Both the position numbers and the translations under genes were made by a program. The notes under the pieces are model-generated. The model did no database searches. It was given only the letters and a program-made list of their open reading frames with translations, and was not told the origin of the DNA. 64,000 nucleotides of DNA from Lachnospiraceae bacterium (GTDB lineage Bacteria > Bacillota > Clostridia > Lachnospirales > Lachnospiraceae), in contig CABIXN010000004.1 of NCBI GenBank assembly GCA_902362715.1, positions 211,337 to 275,336 on the forward strand. The letters are read 5' to 3'. Below, piece after piece: positions 4,041 to 50,701 of this stretch; the stretch's first letter is position 1, and the number at the start of each line of letters is the position of its first letter.

Positions 4041-6749
4041 TTATAAAAAGTCCTTTTTTCCAAGCCTTACATCTTCCATAAAACCTTTCAGTTCTTCCGG
4101 CAGAGATTGAAATAAAAAGCTGCCGCCAGCCTTCTCCTGTTCAAGATACTGATTTTGAAGCTCTTTTGCCATGGCTTCTATTTCCTGGTAAAGTCCTAGG
4201 GCAGACATTCTTGCGCCCCCCTGCCCCAGAATAATCACCTGCTCTAATGCATCCGAAGTAGCAACCGTCACCTGATATTTTCTTCCAATCTCATGAACAG
4301 TTTTTTCAATATACTGGTCTGCCGTTTCTGCCTCTCTGGTATAAACAACATGAATGTTGTGATACTTCAATATCTCACCGGGATTTCCCTTCACTTTATA
4401 CGCATCAAAGACAAGAATCAGCGTAACCTGCTTATAGCCCTGGTAATTGCATAAAATATCCATCAGTTTATTTCTGGCAGCCTCAATGTTCTCCTGGGCC
4501 AATTCCTTTAATTCATCCCAGGCAAAAATAATATTATATCCGTCCACAAGAAGATATTCCTTATCCCCTGTTTTCCTTTGAGATCTGCCGCCAGAAACTG
4601 CAGGCGGAAGCGACGCAGTTTTTTTCTTAAAGGCATTGTGACTCCTCTTAACCGGTCCGTAAGTACGCGAAAAAATCTCCTCCAGCTCTTTTTCACTGGC
4701 CCAGGAATCCTGCTGACGCTTCTTAAAGTCCGGAACAGCTGCTTTTGATTCCTGTACTGTCTTCTCCTTCCACACGCTGTCCACATGCATATGCTGCTCC
4801 ACCTGATCCCAGCTTACATAATATCCGGCTCCATGAGCACAGAATACAGAGCCCGTTGGATGATCCGGATCGCTGTCAGCATCATACCCGGCGCCTGCAA
4901 TCACCTCATCTGCATTATGGCATGGTTCATATCCTTTCAAGCTGCAGAATAAACGGCCGCATCCTTTTGTGTAAGCCGCCACTTCCGTCATATACCCTTC
5001 CATAGCTGCTGCCGGAACCTTTCCGGTAAGAACGGAAACATCTCCTTTATTCTCTGCAGGCAGAAAGCTTCCATGCATTTTCTGTATATCTGACATGGCC
5101 CGTCCAATCATCTGTCCCGGCACTTCCAGACGAAATTCATATACCGGTTCTAGAAGAACAGACTCCGCCTTCCTTAACCCCTGGCGCAGCGCCCGGTAAG
5201 TGGCCTGGCGGAAATCTCCGCCTTCTGTATGCTTTTGATGAGCCCGTCCCGCCGCCAGCGTGATTTTCATATCAGTGATCTCAGAACCGGTCAGCACCCC
5301 AATATGTTTCTTTTCCTTTAAATGCGTCAAAATCAGCCGCTGCCAGTTTTTGTCCAGTATCTCCTCACTGCAGTCTGCGGTAAACTCAAGACCGCTTCCC
5401 GGGGGAAGAGGTGTCAGAAGAAGGTGAACTTCCGCATAATGACGCAGAGGCTCAAAATGCCCGATCCCCTCTACAGTATCTGCAATGGTTTCCTTGTATA
5501 CAATACTTCCGGCGCCAAAGTCCACATTGATTCCAAACCTCTCTAAAATCAGATTTTTCAGGATTTCAATCTGTACCTCTCCCATTACCTGCGCATGAAT
5601 TTCTCCAAGCTGCTCTTTCCACACAATGTGAAGCAGCGGATCCTCTTCCTCCAGCTGCTTAAGCTTTAAGTAAACCAAAAAAGGATCAGCCTGAGCCGGA
5701 AGCAGAATCTGATACGTCAGTACCGGCTCTAATACCGGAGCAGATGCATTCTCTTCCATCCCCAGCCCCTCTCCTGCAAAGGTCTTTGTCAGCCCGGTTA
5801 CCGCACATACAGTTCCTGGTCCTGCCTCCTGCACAGCCTCATAATCAGCACCGGAATAAATCCGGATCTGATCTGCTTTTTCCTCCCAGGCTGCTTCTAA
5901 GGCCGGTTCCTCCTTTTTTCTGTTGGTCAAAGGCATCTTTACCTTTAAGCTTCCACCGGTGATCTTCATATGGGTCAGCCGGGTTTGCTGGCTGTCTCTG
6001 GAGATCTTATACACTCTTGCGCCAAATGTATCCGGATATTTTGGCTCTTCCATATAGCGAACAAGGCCATCCAGAAATGCCTCCACCCCCTCTAACTTCA
6101 GAGCAGAGCCAAAAAAGCAAGGAAACACCTTTCGGGTCAGAATCATTTCTTTTACTGCCGCCGCTGAAACCGTCCCCTGTTCCAGATACTCCTCCAAAAG
6201 CGCCTCATCACAAAGAGCCAGATTTTCCAGAAAATCTGATTCCTTCTGTTCCTGTCCAAAATCAGTGCATCTCTCATCCAGTCTTTGTTTTAATTCCTTT
6301 AATAACGCCTCTTTATCTGTGCCTTTCTGATCCATTTTATTCACAAATAAAAAGACCGGAATCTGATACTGTTTTAAGAGGTTCCACAGCGTCTGTACAT
6401 GTCCCTGTACGCCGTCGGCGCCGCTGATCACAAGAATCCCGTAATCAAGCACCCCAAGTGTCCGTTCCATCTCCGCAGAAAAGTCCACATGCCCCGGCGT
6501 ATCAAGAAGGGTAATATTCCACGAGCCCAGCTTCATCCGGGCCTCCTTGGAAAAAATAGTAATTCCCCTTTGCCGCTCCAGATCATACGTATCCAGAAAT
6601 GCATCTTTATGATCCACTCTTCCGATTTTTCTGATGTTCCCCGCCGAATACAGCATTGCCTCCGCCAGTGTGGTTTTCCCGGCATCTACATGGGCCAGAA
6701 TACCCATACAGGCGCGTTTTTCTGATTTATTTTCAGACGTATTTTCCAT
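4041..6749 (-). CDS. TetM/EF-G-like translational GTPase fused to a NYN (YacP/Rae1-like) nuclease domain
   Basis: This is a 902-residue fusion. Residues 1 to about 650 follow the ribosomal-protection/EF-G plan: the P-loop AHVDAGKT at 19-26, the G2 segment ERQRGITIF, G3 DTPGHVDF and G4 NKMD. The tail from about 730 is a NYN domain with LLVDGYNII, VFDAYKV, REAETADQYIE and VATSDALEQ, the pattern of YacP. In Bacillus YacP (Rae1) is a nuclease that cuts mRNA in the ribosomal A site. EF-G-like factors dock at the same place, so a ribosome-directed cleavage or rescue role is plausible but inferred. It should not be called a tetracycline-resistance gene on this evidence. The ATG at 6749 has a GAAAGGGG site upstream. 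Confidence 0.85.
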   Translation of the reverse strand: MENTSENKSEKRACMGILAHVDAGKTTLAEAMLYSAGNIRKIGRVDHKDAFLDTYDLERQRGITIFSKEARMKLGSWNITLLDTPGHVDFSAEMERTLGVLDYGILVISGADGVQGHVQTLWNLLKQYQIPVFLFVNKMDQKGTDKEALLKELKQRLDERCTDFGQEQKESDFLENLALCDEALLEEYLEQGTVSAAAVKEMILTRKVFPCFFGSALKLEGVEAFLDGLVRYMEEPKYPDTFGARVYKISRDSQQTRLTHMKITGGSLKVKMPLTNRKKEEPALEAAWEEKADQIRIYSGADYEAVQEAGPGTVCAVTGLTKTFAGEGLGMEENASAPVLEPVLTYQILLPAQADPFLVYLKLKQLEEEDPLLHIVWKEQLGEIHAQVMGEVQIEILKNLILERFGINVDFGAGSIVYKETIADTVEGIGHFEPLRHYAEVHLLLTPLPPGSGLEFTADCSEEILDKNWQRLILTHLKEKKHIGVLTGSEITDMKITLAAGRAHQKHTEGGDFRQATYRALRQGLRKAESVLLEPVYEFRLEVPGQMIGRAMSDIQKMHGSFLPAENKGDVSVLTGKVPAAAMEGYMTEVAAYTKGCGRLFCSLKGYEPCHNADEVIAGAGYDADSDPDHPTGSVFCAHGAGYYVSWDQVEQHMHVDSVWKEKTVQESKAAVPDFKKRQQDSWASEKELEEIFSRTYGPVKRSHNAFKKKTASLPPAVSGGRSQRKTGDKEYLLVDGYNIIFAWDELKELAQENIEAARNKLMDILCNYQGYKQVTLILVFDAYKVKGNPGEILKYHNIHVVYTREAETADQYIEKTVHEIGRKYQVTVATSDALEQVIILGQGGARMSALGLYQEIEAMAKELQNQYLEQEKAGGSFLFQSLPEELKGFMEDVRLGKKDFL

Positions 6750-6848
6750 ATGAAAATACCCCTTTCTACTTATTTTTGATTTGCTTTTTATCATAACACA
6801 GAAAGAACTATAAGTCGATAAACCAACCTTTCTCCAGAGTAAAAACAA

Positions 6849-9684: not shown

Positions 9685-9742
9685 ATTGAAGCGTCCTGCA
9701 ACGCTGTAAATCGTATAAAATTGTCTGTATCTCGACGATTGA

Positions 9743-9790
9743 TTATCTCTTAGAGAACTGAGGTGCACGACGTGCTCCTTTGAGACCGTA
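9743..9790 (-). other. Left att site: diverged copy of the rpsI 3' end
   Basis: Read on the minus strand, this encodes [15 protein letters not shown] and a stop, against [15 protein letters not shown] in the intact rpsI. It aligns with 61498-61545. Identical blocks of 9, 11, 8 and 13 bp are separated by substitutions, and similarity ends beyond the last block. There is no upstream S9 coding sequence. The copy is therefore a target-site duplicate, with the divergent part carried by the element. Confidence 0.88.
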
Positions 9791-9854
9791 CTGGCGTACA
9801 GTTTAGCGCCGGTTTTCCTTGATTTTATGGGCTTTTTGGCCTCTGCCCTCAAAT

Positions 9855-40939: not shown

Positions 40940-43900
40940 TTACCGTGCCAGCTCCGCAACCCTCCGGGCAGGCACATCCTCGCCCTCGTCTGGGGTATCG
41001 TCCATCAATGTTTTGTCCTTCTCATCCATGTTGAGCAGAATATTCAGCTCTTTCAAACGGGCTGTTTTCTCCGCCAGCTCCTCCTCGCGGGCAAAAGGTG
41101 TAGCCAATTCCGTGCGGGCGTTTTCAAGCTGGGCCTTGGTTTCCTCCAGGCTGTTCTGCTCGGCCTGCAGGCTGCCTGCAAGGTTTTCCAGAGCGTTGTC
41201 CAGGCGGGTGATATTGCCGAACACATCCGCCCCCAGCGTCACCGTATGGGAAAGAGTGCCTTTGAGCGTGATCCGATACTCGTTGCTCCTGCCATCATAA
41301 GCCAGCACCATGGAAAAGCCCCGGTACTGCCCCAAAAGAACAGCGTCGGAACCTGTCATACGGGTGCAAACATCAATGATAGCCTTGCCGGCGCCCTCTT
41401 TTTCGGTGTAGTGCCTGCCATCCACCTCCATGCCGCAGAAGCCCTCCTGGGCCTTGGGGTGGGCCGCCGCCAGCGCCACATCCTGCTCATAGCCCGCGAT
41501 CCGTTCCGTGAGCCGGGTGATTTCCTCCGGGTATTTCCGATACACCAGTTCCTCCAGAGCGTACACCTGGTTCAAGTGGCTGGCTTTCAGCATATTGAGC
41601 CGCGCCACCTCCATATCCAGGTTGCACTTCTCGATAATAAGTGGGTTGCCGGTGGCCAATGCCTTGATTTCCGAATAGCTGAGGGCAGTTTCATCTACAT
41701 CATCCGCCACACGGACGGGGGCCTTGCTGGTCATGATCTGGGCGATGAACTTCTGCTTGTTCTCCACAAGCTGGTAGAGGTAAGCGTCAAAAGTGCCTTC
41801 CGTTACATACCGATAGATTTCCACCTCCTCATTTTCATTGCCCTGGCGGACGATACGCCCCAGCCGCTGCTGAAGGTCGGAAGGCCGCCAGGGGCAGTCC
41901 AGGTCATGCAGGGCAATGAGCTTATCCTGGACGTTAGTGCCTGCGCCCATTTTGGCCGTGGAACCCAGCAGCACCCGCACCTGCCCGGCGCGCACCTTGG
42001 AAAACAGCTCCTTCTTTTTGGCTTCGCTGTCTGCCGTGTGGATAAAGGCGATTTCTTCTTCCGGGATACCGGCGTCCATCAGTTTCTTTTTTAGGTCGTC
42101 ATAAACACTGAAAGAGCCATCGGTAGTAGGTGTGGACAGGTCGCAGAATACAAGCTGGGCAGAGCGTTTTTCTTTAGTCTGTTCCCAGATGCGGAACACA
42201 TTCCGGGCGCAGACAGCCACCTTGCCATTGGGGTCGTCGGCAGCGAGAGGGTTGATGAGCCGCATATCCAGCGCCAATTTCCGCCCGTCATTGGTAATGC
42301 GGAGCATATTGTCCACATGGGGGTCAACCCCACCGGCACGGATTTTCTCTGCCCGTTCCGCCAGCCCCCTTATCATCTCTTTCTGAAGCTCCGAGGGCTG
42401 GATCACTTCCGTGTGGAAGTTTGCCTTGGGAACAGGCAGACAAAGCATATCCGCTGTTTGGATGTCGGCAACCTCCTTGAAAGCAGCCATCAGCTCCGGC
42501 AGGTTATAAAACTTGGCAAACCGGGTTTTGGCTCGGTAGCCGGTGCCCTCCGGCGATAACTCGATGGCTGTAACCGTTTCTCCGAAGCTCCCCGCCCAGT
42601 CATCGAAATGGACAAGGCCCATCTCCTGCAGGAGCCTGTACTGCAAATACCTCTGGATGGTGTAAAGCTCTACCATGGAGTTGGAGATAGGGGTGCCGGT
42701 GGCAAAAATCACGCCGCGCCCGCCGGTCAACTCGTCCAGATACTGCGTTTTCATGAACAGGTCGCTGGATTTCTGGGCTTCGGTCTGGGCAATGCCGCCC
42801 ACGTTTCGCATTTTTGTCGCCAAAAACAAGTTCTTAAAATAATGGCTCTCATCAATAAAGAGCCTGTCCACGCCGAGCTGCTCAAAGGTGACGGTGTCAT
42901 CCTTGCGGCTCTGGTCGTTGAGCTTGGCCAGCCTTGTCTCCAGCGATTTCCGGGTACGCTCCATCTGCTTGACCGTGTAGCGTTCCGCCTTCTGTGCCTT
43001 GGCCTGCTCGATTCCTTCCAGGATTTCTTCAATCTGGCGCTCCAAAATGGCCTGCTGGCGCTCCAGGCTCATGGGGATTTTTTCAAACTGGCTGTGGCCG
43101 ATGATGATGGCGTCGTAGTCCCCGGTGGCAATGCGGCTGCAAAACTTCTTGCGGTTCTGGGTTTCAAAATCTTTCTTCGTGGCAACTAAAATGTTGGCGC
43201 TGGGATAGAGCTGGAGCCATTCCGCCGCCCACTGCTCGGTGATGTGGTTTGGCACCACGATCAGCGACTTGGTGCAAAGGCCCAAACGCTTCATCTCCAT
43301 GGCAGCGGCCACCATCTCGTAGGTCTTGCCCGCCCCCACCTCGTGGGCCAGCAGGGTATTCCCGCCGTAAAGGATATGGGCAATCGCGTTGATCTGATGA
43401 GGCCGTAGGGAAATTTCCGGGTTCATGCCCTCAAACCGGATGTGCCGCCCATCATACTCACGGGGGCGGACGCCGTTGAAGGTTTCGTTGTAAACACGGC
43501 ACAGCAGTTCCCGGCGGTCGATGTCTTTCCAGATCCACTCGGCAAACTTCTGCTTGATGAGTTCCTGCCGGTCCTGGGCAATCGCGGTTTCTTTTTTGTT
43601 GAGGACAGGCTTTTTCTTGCCGTTCTCGTCCTCAATATAGTCAAATACCCGCACATCCCTTTGATTTAGGGTCTGCTCCAAGATGTGGTAGGCGCTCATC
43701 CGCTTGGTGCCGTAGGTGGTAATGGCTTTCACATTGCTGCGGTCGGCGTTTTTCTCCCGGATGCTCCATTGGCCGGTGGCTTCGGAGCGCAGGATTTTAA
43801 TACGATCCCGCACATAGTAATTGGGGGTGAGCAGCTCCACCATGAATTGCTGGTACACCTCGATGGGCACCCAGTTCGCGCCAATGCGCACGCCAATTTC

Positions 43901-46900
43901 TCCAGCGCCCAAATCCTGGGGCTGAACGGCTTCCAGGGCCTCCACATTTCTGCGGGCGGTTTCCTTCTGATTGTCAGGGGCCACTTCCAGGAATGCTTTT
44001 GCCATCCGCAGCTTTTGGCGCACTTTCCCGGAAAGGTACTCATCCGCCGTGACAAGAGGATAGCGGCTCAAATCCGCCAAAGAAGGCAGGATGTCCTCCG
44101 GGTTCTCCGCACAGCGAATATCCCGGTAGATCACCCCGGCAAGCTCTTTTTCCAGTTCCTCCGGGGATTTACCCGACAGCTCTGCCATATAGTCCATATC
44201 CACACGGGCTTTTTCCGAAATGGACACCGCCAACGCTTCACTGGCTGTATCCACACTGGTGACAGCCACATGGGGCCGGATGGTGCGCCGGGTGAACATA
44301 TCGGCTTTTCTTTTTAGGTTGCCCTGCTCATCCAGCACCTCCAGAGAGCACAAGAGGCAGTAGCTGGAGTCCTCCGAAAAGGCCAGCTTGTTGCCGCGAC
44401 TGTTCAGCAGCCCATACTTGGCGGTGAAGCTGTCGTAAAGGGCGTTGAGCTTTTGCTGCTCGGCTGCAATATCCTCATCCGGGTAGCCTTCGGTCTGGTA
44501 CTCAATAAGCCTGCGGGTACATTCCCGCAGCTCGATCATGCCACGGATACGGTTTTCCGCCGTGACGGAGACTTCCACCGGGTGCATGAGACTGTTTTCT
44601 CGGTAGTATACTTGCCCATCTGCAATCGTGTAGCTGAAATTCTTCACTGTGGGGTCGGCAGGGATGGAGCGATCTTCCTCCTCGTCCAGCTCCTCCAGCT
44701 CATAGGGCTTGATTTCCGCCTGCAAAAACTGGATGGCATTGGCAAGCTGCTCGGATAAATCTTCCCCCTCGCGGGCTTTGCAGGCGCTGTCCGGCCCGAA
44801 CCGTGTGGATTCCATCACCATGTCGCCCAAAATCATCTCCGGGTGCTGCACGAAATAGCGGTTCATGCGGATTCCGTTTTCATCGGTGTCCAAATGCACC
44901 CAATCCTGGTCTAAATCGGTGATGTGGTCGCGCTTTTGCAGGAAAATGATGTCGCTGGTCACTTCCGTTCCGGCGTTCCGCTTGAAGGTGTTATCCGGCA
45001 GGCGGATGGCCCCAATGAGATCGGCGCGCTGTGCCAGGTACTTTCGGACGCTGGAGTTTTCCTTGTCCAGAGTGCCTTTGCTGGTAATGAACGCCACAAT
45101 ACCGCCGAGCCGCACCTTGTCCAGCGTCTTGCCGAAGAAATAGTCGTGGATCAGCCAGTGGTGCTTGTCGTACCGTTTATCCAGCACTTTGAAATCCCCA
45201 AAGGGGACGTTGCCCACGGCTACATCAAAAAAGCTGTCGGGCATTTGCACAGTTTCAAAGCCGTTTACGGAAATGTTGGCATTCTGGTAAAGCTGGCCCG
45301 CAATCCGCCCGGAAATGGAATCCAGCTCTACGCCATAGGCTTTGCTGCCCGCCAAATCTGTGGGGAGCAAGCCAAGGAAATTACCGGTGCCGCAGGATGG
45401 CTCCAAAATGTTCCCTTGGGTAAAGCCCATCTGAGCGAGGGCCTTATAGATTCCCCGGATGACCACAGGCGGCGTGTAAAAGGCGGTGAGGGAGCTGGCC
45501 CTGGCCGCTGCGTATTCCTCCGAATCCAGCAGAGATTTCAGTTCCTCATAATGGGGGCTGGTTTGTTCAAAGCAGTTTGCAAGGCCGCCCCAGCCCACAT
45601 AGCGGGACAGGATTTCCTGTTCTTCGGGCGTGGCCAGCCGTTCCTCAGCTTCGATCTGCTTCAAGGTGCGGATGGCGGCAGCATTGGCCGCGTATTTCTC
45701 GCTGGGGGTGCCGTGGCCCAGGGCGTCATCGGTGATGTGGAAATCATGGCGCTGATCCCTGGGGACCTCCGGGTGCAGGGTTGTGAAAGTAATGCGCTCA
45801 CGGCGGGGGTGCTTCGGCGGCAGTGGGAGTGCTTCTTCTTTTTTAGGCTGTAAATCGGCCTGCTCTGGGCTGGCTGACGGTTCCTCTGCGGCAGGGGCTT
45901 GTTTTGCCTGCTCAATGGCTCGTTCATCAGGGAAGTTCCCGTAAACCCGCAGCCATCTGTTCTCCTGAAGGTCATAGATACCCGCGCCATCATAGGCAAA
46001 GCCATCCTCGCCCTCCATAGTGCCGGCCACATATTTCTGCGCAGCTTGTTCGGCCTCCGCCAGCGTTTGGTAATCCAGCCGTTCATCAAAGCCATTTTCA
46101 AAGTGGTGGTACACCACCACTTCGTAAGGCGGCTCCATGCGCTGGGCATAGCGGTCGATGTCCTCCATGGTGAGCCATTCCGGTTTTTCCGGCAGGGCGT
46201 CATAGAGTTCCCGCATTTTGGCGATTTGCTCTCGCACGTTCCCAGCCCACAGGTGCTTTTCTGCCCGCCCGCCAGCGCCCAAGAAATAGTCGCAGTCGGC
46301 TTTCAGGCGGCTTAAAAGCATATAATCATTTTGTGGTGGTGTACTTTGCTGCAACAAGGGAAGGATGTCTTGGTACTTGGGATATTGTGCGAGGAAGTCC
46401 AGAACGCCCCCGTCACCGTCCCCAATATCCTGGCGCTCGGTGTAGGTGGTGCCATCTGGCATGACCACGGTAAATTTCACCTTGTCATACCCCAGGAACC
46501 GAGCATTTTCTGGGTCATCGGATTCGTACCACGCCTGCCAAGTGCCGTATTTTTCAAGAGCAGCCTTTGCACCGGCCACCTGCTCCTCATCCGCCTGTTT
46601 CATCAGGGTGTCAAATTCACGGATACCGTAGCGTTTTCCATCTTCAAACACGGGGCTTTCGCTCCACTCGCAGAAGATGTATGGCTCTATGTCGGGAGGG
46701 TATTTTCCATTGAAATAGTCCTGGTCCACAGAGGTGAGTTGGTCAAAGTCCAGTTCGGCCAGCTCATTTTGGATGAGTTCATCCAGGCTCTCATACTGCC
46801 TGCGCTCCAAAAACTGCCCGTCCAGATAACGCTCAATGCGGTAATGGACCAAGTCGGCATTGACCTGGATGGGAATTTCCTCATCCGTAACAGTGGTGTA

Positions 46901-49900
46901 GGCAATGCCCACCTTTTCCAGATCACTGAAATCGGCTGGACTGCCATACTCGGCCTCGCAGAAATCGTTGATAAATTCTTTGGCAATCTCCAGTGAAGCA
47001 GGTTCCGGCTCCTCGGACAAAAACTCGCGCTCAATGAAGTCGGCAACATCCTGGCTGTTACCTTTGCCGCCATGGGCACGGTAATCCATCAAACCTTCTT
47101 CGACCAGTTCGCTGGATACCGCATATCCGGCCTCCTCCAGATAACCGGCGATTTCTTCTATCTGCGCCTGTTCCGGGGTAAGGGCCGGGGGCAGCTCCGC
47201 GATCTGCTCCATACAGAGGGTGATGTCCACCGCGATTTCTTCTTCCAGGTCCGCATGGTCCAGGAAGGATTGAAGCAGTCTGCGGATTTCCTCTCTCTGA
47301 ACGGGGTCATGGAGCTGCCGGGCGATATTTTCCACCGCCTGGGCGTCATCCTCACCATAACCCATGCGGGAACCATCAAACTCTCCCACAAAACGCAGCA
47401 CCTGGGCGGCCAGCTTCGGGTAGGGGTCTACCGGTTCTTCTTTTTGGGGTGGTTCCTGCGCCCTGGGCGGCACGGTGAACACCGGCGCGTCCTGGGTGGC
47501 GGAAATGGTCATTTCCGAAGTGTCAGCAATCCGCTGGATTTCCTCCCGCACTGCCTGGGGCATTTCCTCCTCGTAGAAGGTCACCGTGCGGTCTGGGGCG
47601 ATGTGGGCAACCGTTTTGTAGTCACCGTGTTCCTCCTCCAGCCGGTTCCACACCGTGACGCCGTTTCCCAAATAGCCGTAGCCCAGGTCGTAGGCTTTGG
47701 CTTGCGGCATGGTGGGAACCACAGGCTCCTTGTGCTCTGCAAAGAGCGTGAAGGTTCCCTGCCGGAAGGCAGTGAGGTTTTCAAACGCCTGCTGGCGCAG
47801 GGCGTACATCCTGTCATCCTGCGGGGTGGCCTCCCAAATGGGGACCATCATCTGATAGATTTCTTCCACACGGGCCGGGTCGTCAAGCTGCGGCTCGATG
47901 AGCTTCACCGCGTCCCAATAGTCAAAGCCAAAGGGATAGGGGTGGGGCTGCTCCTGGGGTACGTTTTCAAAGAAAGTGCGGATATTCCGGGCAAGCTGGT
48001 GCTTCTCATACTGCGGCATGGCGGCGCGGTCCTCATCGGTGAGGAACCGCCCCTGGGCGATCATGGCGCTGACGCGCTTTTCCACGGCGTTCCATTTCAG
48101 CTCCACCTTGGCGTAGGGGGCGGTGATACTGCCGTGGCTGAAAGAAACGCCTTTACTGAGCTGGTAGGTCACATCGTCATTCCCACTGGAATGGCCGCTG
48201 TACTCGCCGTGGTAGTGCTTTAAGAAATTCTCCCGTTCCTTGCGCTCTGTGTGGTTGCGATAGAAAGAATACACGGCCAGCCGGTAATCGGTGCTGCGTT
48301 TTCCACCCCGGAGAAGGTTGTCGATCTCGTCCCCGGAGATGAAAAAACGCCGCTGGGGGGCGTACCCTTCGGCGGCGGTAAAGTGCAGCGGTTCCCGCTG
48401 CAGGTCGGAAAGCTGCTCCAGCAATTTTTGCGGACGGTGGAAATGGAATCGCAGCAGTTCCCGGTTCTCTCTGTATGCCTGGACAAACTGCTCCAGCTCA
48501 TCCCGCAGGTTCTGCAGCCCCTCCGGATGGCCTAACAAATCGCTTATGGCGGCGCTTTCCTCTGGAAACCCATGATTTTTACCGTAAATGGTATTCACCG
48601 TGGGAAGATAGCCCGCGTCGGCAGTGCCTTCTGCAAAATCCTGCCGGAGATACCATAGCTGCGCGGCCCGTTGCTGGCGCTCATACTCATCCACCCGGTC
48701 AAGCTCGCTCTGGGGCATATATCGGCCCAAGTCCAGCAGTTCCCGGATACGGGCCGCCGCCTGTTCCCAGGGGATGAGGGTGGCGCTGGAACGCTGGGCG
48801 CTTTCGCCCTGGGCAATGCGGATTCCCTCGGCGTTGTACCAGATGGCATACTGTCGGCCATCCAGATAAAAGCCAGCGCCGTTCTCTCCATAGTGCTCTG
48901 CCAGGAACCTGGCATTGTCCGGCTTATCCTTTTTGAAATAGGCGCAGATGATGAGGCGGCTGTTCTGGTCGTTAGCACCAATGCACAGCGCCTCGTCGAT
49001 TACCTGCTGAGGCAGAGCCGGGTGAGGGAAAATGGATGGTTTGGCCGTACCCTCGGCCTGGGTTGGCTGCTGAAACGCCGCAAAATCAAAAAGGGACATC
49101 TGCTGGCTCTCTTGGGTAGGGAGCTGCGGGATGTCCGTCTGAATGAAGTATTCTTTTTTGTCAATAAGCTGGGCGGTCCAGCCTGCCACCACTTCCCAGG
49201 AAAATACAGATTCCCTGGTGCGGGATGGGTAAGAGCCTTCCCACATGAGCAGGCCATTCTCCTGGGGCTTATATCCCAGGCGCTGCCCGTCAGCGATGAT
49301 CTCAGTGTACCGGTCCTGATAAGCGGATTTCAGGTAGTCGGCCCGTTCCTGAACGTCGCTGTGAACCGAAAAGAAAAGCTCGATCTGATTTTTCTTATAT
49401 TTCAGGTCATCATCTTTGTTGGCGATGATGGCCATGATCTGCTTTTCATCCAAAAGCGCAGGGAGCTGTTCGCCACCTGCGCTTTCTTCCGGTTCATCAA
49501 TTAGCTGTAAATCAGCTCCGCCAGCACCGTTTCCTCCGCCGCGTTCTGCAGGTTGCTCATCATCTGCACCCACTTCATCTGGTCGCTGGCTTTCAGTTCC
49601 TCTGTCACGCCCTGGTTCTTGGCCATCTGCGCCACGATCTGCTCCATCCGGCGCTGGGCGGTCTGCTGGATCTCCGCCAGATGGCTGTTCAGCTTGCCGC
49701 TGGTCAGCAGGTTGGTGTACGTCACCCTGCGGTGCTCCTTGAGGAATTTCTTCCGAAGCAATGCGTATTTCCCATGGGGAACCGGCTCCTCCTGGGGCGG
49801 CAGAAGGTTCGGCAGATTGTAGTCGCCCTGCCTGGTGTAAGTGATCTCGGTCATATTCAAAACTCCTTTCCAGCTGTGTGTTTTCCTGTTCAGTTACAGC

Positions 49901-50701
49901 ATACTGGTTTTTCTGCTGGGGTTCAAATGTGCGATTTTCTTTTTGGGGCTGTCTTTGCAGGGCAAGAACCGTGCGGGAAATGGCGGAAAGGCACATCTGG
50001 GAGATGTCCCCGGTGGCCACGCCTAAAGCGTTCAACGTCTGCGGGGTGTTAAAGTCCGTCACATCCCGGAAATCCATGTCCTCAAAATATTCAGACGGGT
50101 CAAGGCCGCAGCGCACCAGCAGCATATATCCAATGCTGTTTTGCACCGCCCTGCGGTATTCCACTTCCAGGTTCAGCTCATCCAGTTCTTCCAGAAAGCT
50201 GCCTTCCGTGAGGGTTTTCAATTCTGCCAGGTAGTCGGGCATATTGTCCTCCACGGCGTTCTTTGCCGCAGAGAGCAGTGCTTCACCCAAATCCTCCTTG
50301 CGCTCCAGCTCTCCAAAGCTGTTTTCCAGCGTTTCAATGATGTCCGGCGCATATTCCTCCCGCACCGTCCAAAGGGGGACGGGGCGGGGGAACCGGGCCT
50401 CATGGGTATCGGAAATATCAAAGTAGTATTTCAGTCGGGGTTTTCCATTGTGTTCACCGTCAAAAACGGCAATGCCGTTTGCGCCCCGGTTTACCCAGCG
50501 CCCAAATTGCCGGTTCCATCGCTCGATCTCCAGGACGGCGGTGGCGTCTGGGCGCTGGGCGTAGACAAGCAGTTGTTCATCGAAAGAAAGCCGGTAGTTG
50601 CGGCAGGCAGAAGCCAGAAACGCCCGCCACTGGTCAGGAGCTGTCACGCTGCGCTGCGTTTCCTGGTACAGCTCCGTCAAGGCTTTATATCGTATCGCCA
50701 T
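40940..50701 (-). CDS. Giant 3253-residue DNA methylase/SNF2-type helicase protein
   Basis: The N-terminal 250 residues (LTELYQETQRSVTAPDQWRA, FDEQLLVYAQRPDATAVLE) are typical of ICE proteins of this class. A disordered Gly/Asp/Glu/Pro-rich linker covers about 280-400, then several repeated accessory domains. An N6-adenine methylase core lies near 1770 (EPSCGTGNF and NVPFGDF, a variant of NPPF). A helicase follows with HEVGAGKT (about 2453), DESHYFKN (about 2615), ATGTPISNSM and QRLGRIVRQGN (about 2944). Related proteins occur in most Tn1549-like elements and may protect or remodel transferred DNA. AAGGAGG precedes the ATG. The linker is encoded over a complete tnpV gene in another frame. Confidence 0.9.
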   Translation of the reverse strand: MAIRYKALTELYQETQRSVTAPDQWRAFLASACRNYRLSFDEQLLVYAQRPDATAVLEIERWNRQFGRWVNRGANGIAVFDGEHNGKPRLKYYFDISDTHEARFPRPVPLWTVREEYAPDIIETLENSFGELERKEDLGEALLSAAKNAVEDNMPDYLAELKTLTEGSFLEELDELNLEVEYRRAVQNSIGYMLLVRCGLDPSEYFEDMDFRDVTDFNTPQTLNALGVATGDISQMCLSAISRTVLALQRQPQKENRTFEPQQKNQYAVTEQENTQLERSFEYDRDHLHQAGRLQSAEPSAAPGGAGSPWEIRIASEEIPQGAPQGDVHQPADQRQAEQPSGGDPADRPAPDGADRGADGQEPGRDRGTESQRPDEVGADDEQPAERGGGNGAGGADLQLIDEPEESAGGEQLPALLDEKQIMAIIANKDDDLKYKKNQIELFFSVHSDVQERADYLKSAYQDRYTEIIADGQRLGYKPQENGLLMWEGSYPSRTRESVFSWEVVAGWTAQLIDKKEYFIQTDIPQLPTQESQQMSLFDFAAFQQPTQAEGTAKPSIFPHPALPQQVIDEALCIGANDQNSRLIICAYFKKDKPDNARFLAEHYGENGAGFYLDGRQYAIWYNAEGIRIAQGESAQRSSATLIPWEQAAARIRELLDLGRYMPQSELDRVDEYERQQRAAQLWYLRQDFAEGTADAGYLPTVNTIYGKNHGFPEESAAISDLLGHPEGLQNLRDELEQFVQAYRENRELLRFHFHRPQKLLEQLSDLQREPLHFTAAEGYAPQRRFFISGDEIDNLLRGGKRSTDYRLAVYSFYRNHTERKERENFLKHYHGEYSGHSSGNDDVTYQLSKGVSFSHGSITAPYAKVELKWNAVEKRVSAMIAQGRFLTDEDRAAMPQYEKHQLARNIRTFFENVPQEQPHPYPFGFDYWDAVKLIEPQLDDPARVEEIYQMMVPIWEATPQDDRMYALRQQAFENLTAFRQGTFTLFAEHKEPVVPTMPQAKAYDLGYGYLGNGVTVWNRLEEEHGDYKTVAHIAPDRTVTFYEEEMPQAVREEIQRIADTSEMTISATQDAPVFTVPPRAQEPPQKEEPVDPYPKLAAQVLRFVGEFDGSRMGYGEDDAQAVENIARQLHDPVQREEIRRLLQSFLDHADLEEEIAVDITLCMEQIAELPPALTPEQAQIEEIAGYLEEAGYAVSSELVEEGLMDYRAHGGKGNSQDVADFIEREFLSEEPEPASLEIAKEFINDFCEAEYGSPADFSDLEKVGIAYTTVTDEEIPIQVNADLVHYRIERYLDGQFLERRQYESLDELIQNELAELDFDQLTSVDQDYFNGKYPPDIEPYIFCEWSESPVFEDGKRYGIREFDTLMKQADEEQVAGAKAALEKYGTWQAWYESDDPENARFLGYDKVKFTVVMPDGTTYTERQDIGDGDGGVLDFLAQYPKYQDILPLLQQSTPPQNDYMLLSRLKADCDYFLGAGGRAEKHLWAGNVREQIAKMRELYDALPEKPEWLTMEDIDRYAQRMEPPYEVVVYHHFENGFDERLDYQTLAEAEQAAQKYVAGTMEGEDGFAYDGAGIYDLQENRWLRVYGNFPDERAIEQAKQAPAAEEPSASPEQADLQPKKEEALPLPPKHPRRERITFTTLHPEVPRDQRHDFHITDDALGHGTPSEKYAANAAAIRTLKQIEAEERLATPEEQEILSRYVGWGGLANCFEQTSPHYEELKSLLDSEEYAAARASSLTAFYTPPVVIRGIYKALAQMGFTQGNILEPSCGTGNFLGLLPTDLAGSKAYGVELDSISGRIAGQLYQNANISVNGFETVQMPDSFFDVAVGNVPFGDFKVLDKRYDKHHWLIHDYFFGKTLDKVRLGGIVAFITSKGTLDKENSSVRKYLAQRADLIGAIRLPDNTFKRNAGTEVTSDIIFLQKRDHITDLDQDWVHLDTDENGIRMNRYFVQHPEMILGDMVMESTRFGPDSACKAREGEDLSEQLANAIQFLQAEIKPYELEELDEEEDRSIPADPTVKNFSYTIADGQVYYRENSLMHPVEVSVTAENRIRGMIELRECTRRLIEYQTEGYPDEDIAAEQQKLNALYDSFTAKYGLLNSRGNKLAFSEDSSYCLLCSLEVLDEQGNLKRKADMFTRRTIRPHVAVTSVDTASEALAVSISEKARVDMDYMAELSGKSPEELEKELAGVIYRDIRCAENPEDILPSLADLSRYPLVTADEYLSGKVRQKLRMAKAFLEVAPDNQKETARRNVEALEAVQPQDLGAGEIGVRIGANWVPIEVYQQFMVELLTPNYYVRDRIKILRSEATGQWSIREKNADRSNVKAITTYGTKRMSAYHILEQTLNQRDVRVFDYIEDENGKKKPVLNKKETAIAQDRQELIKQKFAEWIWKDIDRRELLCRVYNETFNGVRPREYDGRHIRFEGMNPEISLRPHQINAIAHILYGGNTLLAHEVGAGKTYEMVAAAMEMKRLGLCTKSLIVVPNHITEQWAAEWLQLYPSANILVATKKDFETQNRKKFCSRIATGDYDAIIIGHSQFEKIPMSLERQQAILERQIEEILEGIEQAKAQKAERYTVKQMERTRKSLETRLAKLNDQSRKDDTVTFEQLGVDRLFIDESHYFKNLFLATKMRNVGGIAQTEAQKSSDLFMKTQYLDELTGGRGVIFATGTPISNSMVELYTIQRYLQYRLLQEMGLVHFDDWAGSFGETVTAIELSPEGTGYRAKTRFAKFYNLPELMAAFKEVADIQTADMLCLPVPKANFHTEVIQPSELQKEMIRGLAERAEKIRAGGVDPHVDNMLRITNDGRKLALDMRLINPLAADDPNGKVAVCARNVFRIWEQTKEKRSAQLVFCDLSTPTTDGSFSVYDDLKKKLMDAGIPEEEIAFIHTADSEAKKKELFSKVRAGQVRVLLGSTAKMGAGTNVQDKLIALHDLDCPWRPSDLQQRLGRIVRQGNENEEVEIYRYVTEGTFDAYLYQLVENKQKFIAQIMTSKAPVRVADDVDETALSYSEIKALATGNPLIIEKCNLDMEVARLNMLKASHLNQVYALEELVYRKYPEEITRLTERIAGYEQDVALAAAHPKAQEGFCGMEVDGRHYTEKEGAGKAIIDVCTRMTGSDAVLLGQYRGFSMVLAYDGRSNEYRITLKGTLSHTVTLGADVFGNITRLDNALENLAGSLQAEQNSLEETKAQLENARTELATPFAREEELAEKTARLKELNILLNMDEKDKTLMDDTPDEGEDVPARRVAELAR
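49501..49854 (-). CDS. tnpV: TnpV-family protein nested in the giant gene (other frame, same strand)
   Basis: This 117-residue protein (MTEITYTRQGDYNLPNLLP, HGKYALLRKKFLKEHRRVTY, LLTSGKLNSHLAEIQQTAQ, QMKWVQMMSNLQNAAEETVL) is a full-length TnpV, a family first named from clostridial Tn4451-type transposons, role unclear. It lies entirely inside the methylase/helicase gene. AAAGGAG stands 8 nt before its ATG, and a copy of the ICE promoter box with TATGCT lies 44 bp upstream. In the giant frame the same DNA gives a low-complexity linker, as expected if the linker grew from an inserted gene. Confidence 0.75.
   Translation of the reverse strand: MTEITYTRQGDYNLPNLLPPQEEPVPHGKYALLRKKFLKEHRRVTYTNLLTSGKLNSHLAEIQQTAQRRMEQIVAQMAKNQGVTEELKASDQMKWVQMMSNLQNAAEETVLAELIYS
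49898..49934 (-). promoter_or_regulatory. Repeated ICE promoter box inside the giant gene, before tnpV
   Basis: TCGCACATTTG (49924-49934 on the minus strand) is followed 20 nt later by TATGCT (49898-49903). It has the same box and spacing as the intergenic copies, though it lies within coding sequence of the giant gene. Confidence 0.55.

Follow-up and report, generated by a model that had tools for sequence, protein, structure and literature searches.

A Translational GTPase Fused to a YacP/Rae1-Type NYN Nuclease Seems to Stand in for Rae1

The Gene and Its Product

The window analysed here, a stretch of 64,000 nucleotides from a Lachnospiraceae bacterium, carries on its minus strand, according to the ORF listing, an intact open frame running from an ATG at position 6749 to a stop at 4041 and encoding 902 residues (Table 1). 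In Pfam searches with the window protein, GTP_EFTU matched at 3e-49 and NYN_YacP at 7e-52, the latter with 176 bits against a curated cut-off of 24.6, and about 120 residues separate EFG_C from NYN_YacP. Searches against PDB sequences retrieved EF-G (5e-74), TetM (1e-68), and Bacillus Rae1/YacP 5mq9 (3e-26), the last one being recovered at 1e-27 when the NYN part was used as the sole query. The protein thus contains what defines the EF-G (EF2) family, namely domains I to V, the GTPase motifs, and the switch II histidine, together with what defines a YacP/Rae1 NYN, a domain above the cut-off with conserved acidic active-site residues. Its best named matches were proteins from Blautia and other Lachnospiraceae, at 64–65% identity. 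The pattern scan gave 11 promoter-like sites in the region, where shuffled sequences had 6.1 on average. As regards a possible leader or attenuator, it showed nothing resembling a terminator ahead of the fusion gene.

Table 1. Features of the fusion gene and its product (positions in the window).
Feature	Position	Strand	Evidence
Whole gene, 902 aa: KHT-type translational GTPase plus YacP/Rae1 NYN nuclease	4041–6749	−	ORF, Pfam, PDB sequence matches
G domain, residues 14–234: AHVDAGKTT, RGITI, DTPGH with His87, NKMD	6048–6710	−	Pfam GTP_EFTU
Domain II, residues 244–327	5769–6020	−	Pfam EF-G_D2
Domain III, residues 341–412	5514–5729	−	Pfam EFG_III
Domain IV, residues 415–529	5163–5507	−	Pfam EFG_IV
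Domain IV loop, residues 501–514, GRAHQKHTEGGDFR	5208–5249	−	Alignment and sequence reading
Domain V, residues 531–612	4914–5159	−	Pfam EFG_C
C-terminal extension, residues 613–656, GSVFC motif	4782–4913	−	Alignment; ordered in predicted model
Flexible linker, residues 657–731; pLDDT below 50 at 663–684 and 696–728	4557–4781	−	Predicted model
Conserved linker stretch, residues 687–698, helical in model at low confidence	4656–4691	−	Alignment and model
NYN_YacP nuclease domain, residues 733–895: D736, N739, D782, D811, E815, D833	4065–4553	−	Pfam, alignments
Ribosome-binding site GAAAGGGG, purine-rich, 9 nt upstream of ATG, rated good	6759–6766	−	Read from sequence
Promoter-like site TCGACT-17-TATGAT, 9/12 matches, weak evidence	6790–6818	−	Pattern scan

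The domain PF05991 was present in all of the best 120 of at least 7982 scored homologues, and a genome scan yielded 193 relatives, from which 80 loci were kept, all 80 with GTPase and NYN in one frame. The fusion is therefore real, far from chance and no artefact of assembly. A fusion unique to this assembly and split in close relatives would, by the earlier note's own terms, have refuted its reading; the fusion proved to be widespread.

The GTPase Half Forms a Separate Subfamily

The GTPase motifs, including the switch II residue His87, were invariant or nearly so across the 75 fusion proteins aligned. Over domains I to V, the window protein was on average 63.5% identical to 35 other fused proteins and 44.0% to 18 GTPases without NYN, compared with 29.1% to Tet(W) and a mean of 26.8% to 11 EF-G rows. 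The domain IV loop, which reads GRAHxKHTEGGDFR here, is occupied in the same columns by GLYYSPVSTPADFR in Tet(W) and by GSYHEVDSSEMAFK, or close to it, in the EF-G rows, and we use "KHT" as our own label for the subfamily after this loop. The pattern KHTxGGDFR was found in 127 of the 133 collected fused frames, the remaining six being four variants and two (L202 and L203) without a similar match, whereas YSPV was detected in one fused frame only, elsewhere than in the domain IV loop. The YSPVSTP loop of domain IV is functionally important in Tet ribosomal protection proteins, and with Tet(W) as the sole yardstick it is absent from the window protein.

Scores against NCBIfam pointed in the same direction. 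The general tetracycline-protection model NF012153 gave 406 bits against a cut-off of 775, and, among the 25 of 33 matching families listed, the other Tet models scored lower and below their own cut-offs. In the GTPase tree, KHT and fused rows were set apart from Tet(W) and EF-G at 100/100; this tree has Tet(W) as its one Tet row, grouping with EF-G at 100/100, includes two wrong EF-G frames, and leaves out Tet B(P) and Otr(A). A KHT-only row from Ligilactobacillus salivarius was placed inside the fused group, a position that is weakly supported. KHT GTPases without NYN do exist, with about 655 residues and ending in much the same C-terminal extension; one such relative, with a variant loop, is encoded on the L. 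salivarius plasmid pMP118.

Scores below the NCBIfam cut-offs, a different domain IV loop, and a subfamily of its own mean that this is not a TetM protein. By sequence, the GTPase belongs to a subfamily of which some members have no nuclease attached, and tetracycline resistance as a function was rejected on the scores and the loop. The earlier description of the 902-residue chain as a TetM/EF-G-type GTPase joined to a YacP/Rae1-like NYN holds for the fusion and the EF-G-type domains, and had to be dropped, on scores, loop, and subfamily, for the TetM type.

Compared with its relatives, the fusion shares with Tet(M), Tet(O), and Tet(W) the EF-G-like domains I to V and an extension past domain V, which is short in the Tet proteins and longer and conserved in the fusion; it differs from them in lacking the YSPV loop and in carrying the NYN. 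The KHT-only GTPases resemble the fusion more closely, most of them having the KHT loop, but they lack linker and NYN. With EF-G, the fold and the GTPase motifs are held in common, whereas the domain IV loops differ, EF-G is about 44 residues longer between query residues 160 and 164, and it has no NYN.

The NYN Domain, the Linker, and the Predicted Structure

The six residues D736, N739, D782, D811, E815, and D833, which align with D7, N10, D53, D81, E85, and D104 of Rae1, were unvarying in 98/98 fused and 26/26 stand-alone NYN domains, and in a larger alignment they were kept in 125–126 of 126 fused rows (one row being truncated) and in 49/49 stand-alone ones. Loss of the NYN aspartates in homologues, which the earlier note had named as fatal to its reading, was thus not encountered. 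As far as sequence tells, the conservation of active-site residues in both NYN and GTPase indicates that both halves are under selection as enzymes.

Rae1/YacP of Bacillus subtilis (5mq8, 5mq9) has the same NYN_YacP domain and the same acidic active-site residues as the fusion, and it is a free protein with a chain of 181 residues, whereas the NYN of the fusion is attached to a GTPase. At position 784, Tyr occurs in 126/126 fused rows and His in 38 of 49 solo rows, and Rae1 residue E123 is kept in 65/126 fused rows versus 48/49 solo ones. B. subtilis Rae1 is not known to need a KHT GTPase.

An AlphaFold2 model of the window protein, built with 75 sequences, had a mean pLDDT of 82 and a pTM of 0.60, with no fixed place for the NYN. 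Since residues 663–684 and 696–728 are of low confidence in this model, the NYN is predicted to hang on a tether. Foldseek and VIA comparisons, run with the whole protein as query and giving lists filled by EF-G chains and their relatives, found the predicted domains I to V to resemble ribosome-bound EF-G, TetM, and relatives; with such a query, Rae1 being missing from the lists carries no weight.

Within the linker, the stretch EKELEEIFSRTYG of the window protein contains three residues, E688, I692, and T696, invariant in 75/75 aligned fusion proteins. A fuller pattern of this stretch was found in 71/133 fused frames, in 0/50 solo frames, and in 0/32 GTPase-only frames, many of these being cut short or without linker. 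The stretch may be a docking site. The end of Tet(W), NSRIDKVRHMFHKLA, where the C-terminal helix of TetM-type proteins lies, shows a likeness to it that is suggestive only.

The Fusion and a Stand-Alone NYN Almost Never Share a Genome

In a sample of 293 genomes of the class, eight of which had broken or odd frames and were assigned by hand, NYN_YacP was detected above the cut-off in 191: fused only in 103, solo only in 87, and both in a single genome (G736). With 104 genomes carrying the fused and 88 the solo form, 31 with both would be expected under independence (Fisher 1e-19, phylogeny ignored). The search with the GTPase part was positive in 103 of the 104 fused genomes, and both states occur inside six families. 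Elsewhere, NYN_YacP was patchier, being found in 22/150 genomes of another family, that of genome G001, 21 of them in frames of 848–1000 residues, and in 163/299 genomes of a phylum sample, mostly stand-alone among the matches listed; B. subtilis and Synechococcus elongatus served as control genomes carrying the domain.

The stand-alone gene belongs to an operon with the order cysS-mrnC-rlmB-yacP-sigH. None of the 12 fusion-only genomes examined had an NYN beside rlmB. The sigH gene was in view in eight of them (out of view in four), overlapping the rlmB frame or lying at most 300 nt away in seven and 571 nt away in the other one (G644). In G736, with both forms, an NYN does lie between rlmB and sigH, and in three genomes without any NYN the place beside rlmB was likewise empty of it. 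The window gene itself is located outside the rlmB-yacP-sigH operon, flanked by ORFs that we take to be an lgt-like gene and an HD-domain gene.

Because fused and solo forms almost never co-occur and the NYN is missing beside rlmB in 12/12 genomes, the fusion seems, at the level of gene content, to stand in Rae1's place, taking over for yacP in the genomes examined. Tet proteins with a YacP-like NYN, of the same architecture, are in print from ten Clostridiales species, with a role as resistance RNase proposed (Atkinson 2015, PMC4342817). The architecture is far commoner than that, and whereas the printed account files these proteins under Tet (PMC4342817), the GTPase here forms a separate subfamily and the NYN appears as a replacement of Rae1. 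The evidence for the fusion standing in for Rae1 is what is new here; among the open-licence papers searched, none was listed that deals with what the fusion does.

The Two Modules Tend to Stay Together

The family of Blautia (that of genome G706) was sampled with 150 genomes from 149 genera. A second genome of this family, G764, has a locus identical to that of Blautia sp. An81. Going by the best named matches of the window protein, the host too probably belongs to this family. NYN_YacP was present in 137 of the 150, fused in 129 (mostly by frame length) and solo in eight, and 13 had none. A KHT GTPase was detected in six of the eight solo genomes, on contigs other than that of the NYN, and in none of the 13 genomes lacking NYN (Fisher 0.0005, phylogeny ignored); in G825 the frame holding the copy is short, at 541 residues. 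No KHT GTPase was found in the solo genomes G749 and G797. In the class sample, G661 was a further solo genome having a KHT GTPase, and the 18 KHT-only genomes comprised 12 with solo NYN, six with no NYN, and none with the fusion. Of the 88 solo genomes of the class, 76 had no KHT GTPase at 1e-110, the fusion-bearing one being counted among the 76.

Mapping the three states onto an rpoB tree built from 29 genomes takes 12 changes, and all five independent pairs agree (p 0.06, the floor of the sign test), pairs with a fused row agreeing by construction and only two pairs being among non-fused rows; phylogeny is thus controlled for in part. With the KHT GTPase in 6/8 solo genomes and 0/13 genomes without NYN, and a solo NYN in 12/18 KHT-only genomes, the NYN and KHT GTPase modules tend to be kept together, with exceptions. 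One of these, G797, weakens the coupling, since it has a solo NYN and no KHT GTPase. Its NYN gene (L328, 3459–4238) adjoins rlmB and encodes a Lys-rich C-terminal tail, which may act as a stand-in for a ribosome-binding partner.

Origin of the Fusion

In the larger NYN tree, fused NYNs and eight Blautia-family solo NYNs formed one group at 100/100, the solo rows being G661 and seven others, with G797 not included; a single clade of fused rows was not rejected (AU p 0.49). A first, smaller tree required three switches between the fused and the solo state and placed the solo row L141 among fused ones. In a quick tree, the KHT-only GTPases of six of these eight solo genomes grouped with other KHT-only ones. 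The rlmB gene directly precedes the NYN in six of the eight solo loci of the Blautia family (not seen for G791 and G661), and this position favours pre-fusion relics over fission products as the origin of these solo genes.

A Proposed Mechanism and Its Alternatives

We lean towards reading the fusion as a relocated Rae1, a nuclease that its own GTPase would carry to the ribosome, where it would cleave the message in the A site. Rae1 itself is described as an mRNA endonuclease acting in the ribosomal A site (PMC6613710, PMC12320835, PMC10100781). For the fusion, we infer ribosome binding, GTP dependence, the cut site, and rescue from known relatives. In an ancestor, yacP would have stood in the cysS-mrnC-rlmB-yacP-sigH operon, with the KHT-type translational GTPase encoded by a gene of its own; a fusion of the two would have been gained, and the stand-alone yacP lost. 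In its GTP form, the protein would dock at the factor site when a ribosome's A site is empty or slow. Domain IV would probe the decoding centre, and the NYN, on its tether of about 75 residues, could reach the exposed A-site codon and cut it through metal-dependent hydrolysis, which would allow rescue of the ribosome and decay of the message. The simultaneous presence of domain IV and NYN in the decoding centre would hardly be possible.

The main rival takes the NYN for an ordinary Rae1 and gives the GTPase a separate job, such as A-site clearing, with the fusion providing only ribosome proximity or co-expression. The long disordered linker of the predicted model would suit such an arrangement, as do the stand-alone NYNs found without a KHT-only GTPase in 76 of the 88 solo genomes in the class sample, as well as in G749 and G797, yet the fused form has been retained in 104/293 genomes of many families, three linker residues are invariant, and the KHT GTPase is absent from all 13 Blautia-family genomes lacking NYN, so that we hold this rival to be unlikely, though worth serious weight. 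Less probable still is a nuclease that cuts rRNA or tRNA of the GTPase-bound ribosome in ribosome or tRNA quality control, which comes near the resistance RNase already proposed in print (PMC4342817): a long-tethered nuclease could reach rRNA or the A-site tRNA, but its sequence places the NYN in the Rae1 family, yacP is missing next to rlmB in those fusion genomes that were examined, a resistance context is lacking, and Rae1 is described as a nuclease of A-site mRNA (PMC12320835, PMC6613710).

Least credible of all, and in our view very improbable, is a tetracycline ribosomal protection protein with an added nuclease. Several records bear such names, and the domain order is the same as in Tet proteins, with 29% identity to Tet(W) in domains I to V; against this stand scores under the cut-offs of the listed Tet models, KHTxGGDFR in place of the Tet(W) loop in nearly all fused frames, and the 100/100 split of KHT and fused rows from Tet(W) and EF-G, in a tree with one Tet row.

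Returning to the relocated Rae1, a wider and more tentative proposal sees in the KHT proteins a class of translational GTPase, so far uncharacterised, that serves to bring an endonuclease for A-site mRNA into paused ribosomes. This would make them a one-chain bacterial counterpart of the eukaryotic rescue by GTPase and A-site nuclease, and near-core in the Blautia family; the proposal falls short of what we would call probable. In eukaryotes, the parts are played by Hbs1/Dom34 with Cue2. In our judgement, the reading bears on how bacterial A-site nucleases find the right ribosomes: if a dedicated GTPase delivers a Rae1 relative, then entry, GTP hydrolysis, and cleavage would be measurable in one purified protein. 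If true, KHT GTPases that occur unfused in Clostridia and L. salivarius would also be candidate partners of free Rae1.

Genomic Context, Record Names, and Mobile DNA

The largest cluster of neighbouring genes covers 17 of the 80 loci, at mixed positions, so there is no conserved partner gene, and an operon partner was rejected as an explanation. Matches occurred in 987 plasmid records, but only two of these, of 252 and 518 kb, extend over 80% or more of the protein. With neighbours not conserved over the 80 loci and so few plasmid matches of that extent, the earlier statement that the gene has no resistance context is borne out.

In the plasmid records NZ_CP143948.1 and NC_007930.1, a fusion protein and a KHT-only relative are named as TetM/TetW/TetO/TetS family resistance proteins. 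These names are probably wrong; they could mislead resistance surveys of gut bacteria and, if the present reading is true, should be corrected. The fusion was also seen in two "Bacteriophage sp." records from faecal samples, MT835563.1 (5403–7955, 57% identity) and MT835514.1 (15258–17873, 48%), the first of which may be host DNA, as it is marked UNVERIFIED.

The fusion gene lies outside a mobile element that starts at about 9740. From this sharp start to 18000, where the query ended, at least 8.26 kb of the window are 100% identical to G001, a genome of another family, and the two tandem ORFs beside 9740 are presumably recombinase-like; the segment is probably an integrated mobile element, recently transferred. 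Since this element is common to both, the 71% word match of G001 is no sign of kinship. No tRNA was found within the window. A stretch of about 50 bases (9741–9792) recurs at 82–83% in three other places, in G001, G706, and G737, and is possibly an end or attachment site of such elements. Finally, a minus-strand open frame of 3253 residues occupies positions 40940–50701 of the window.
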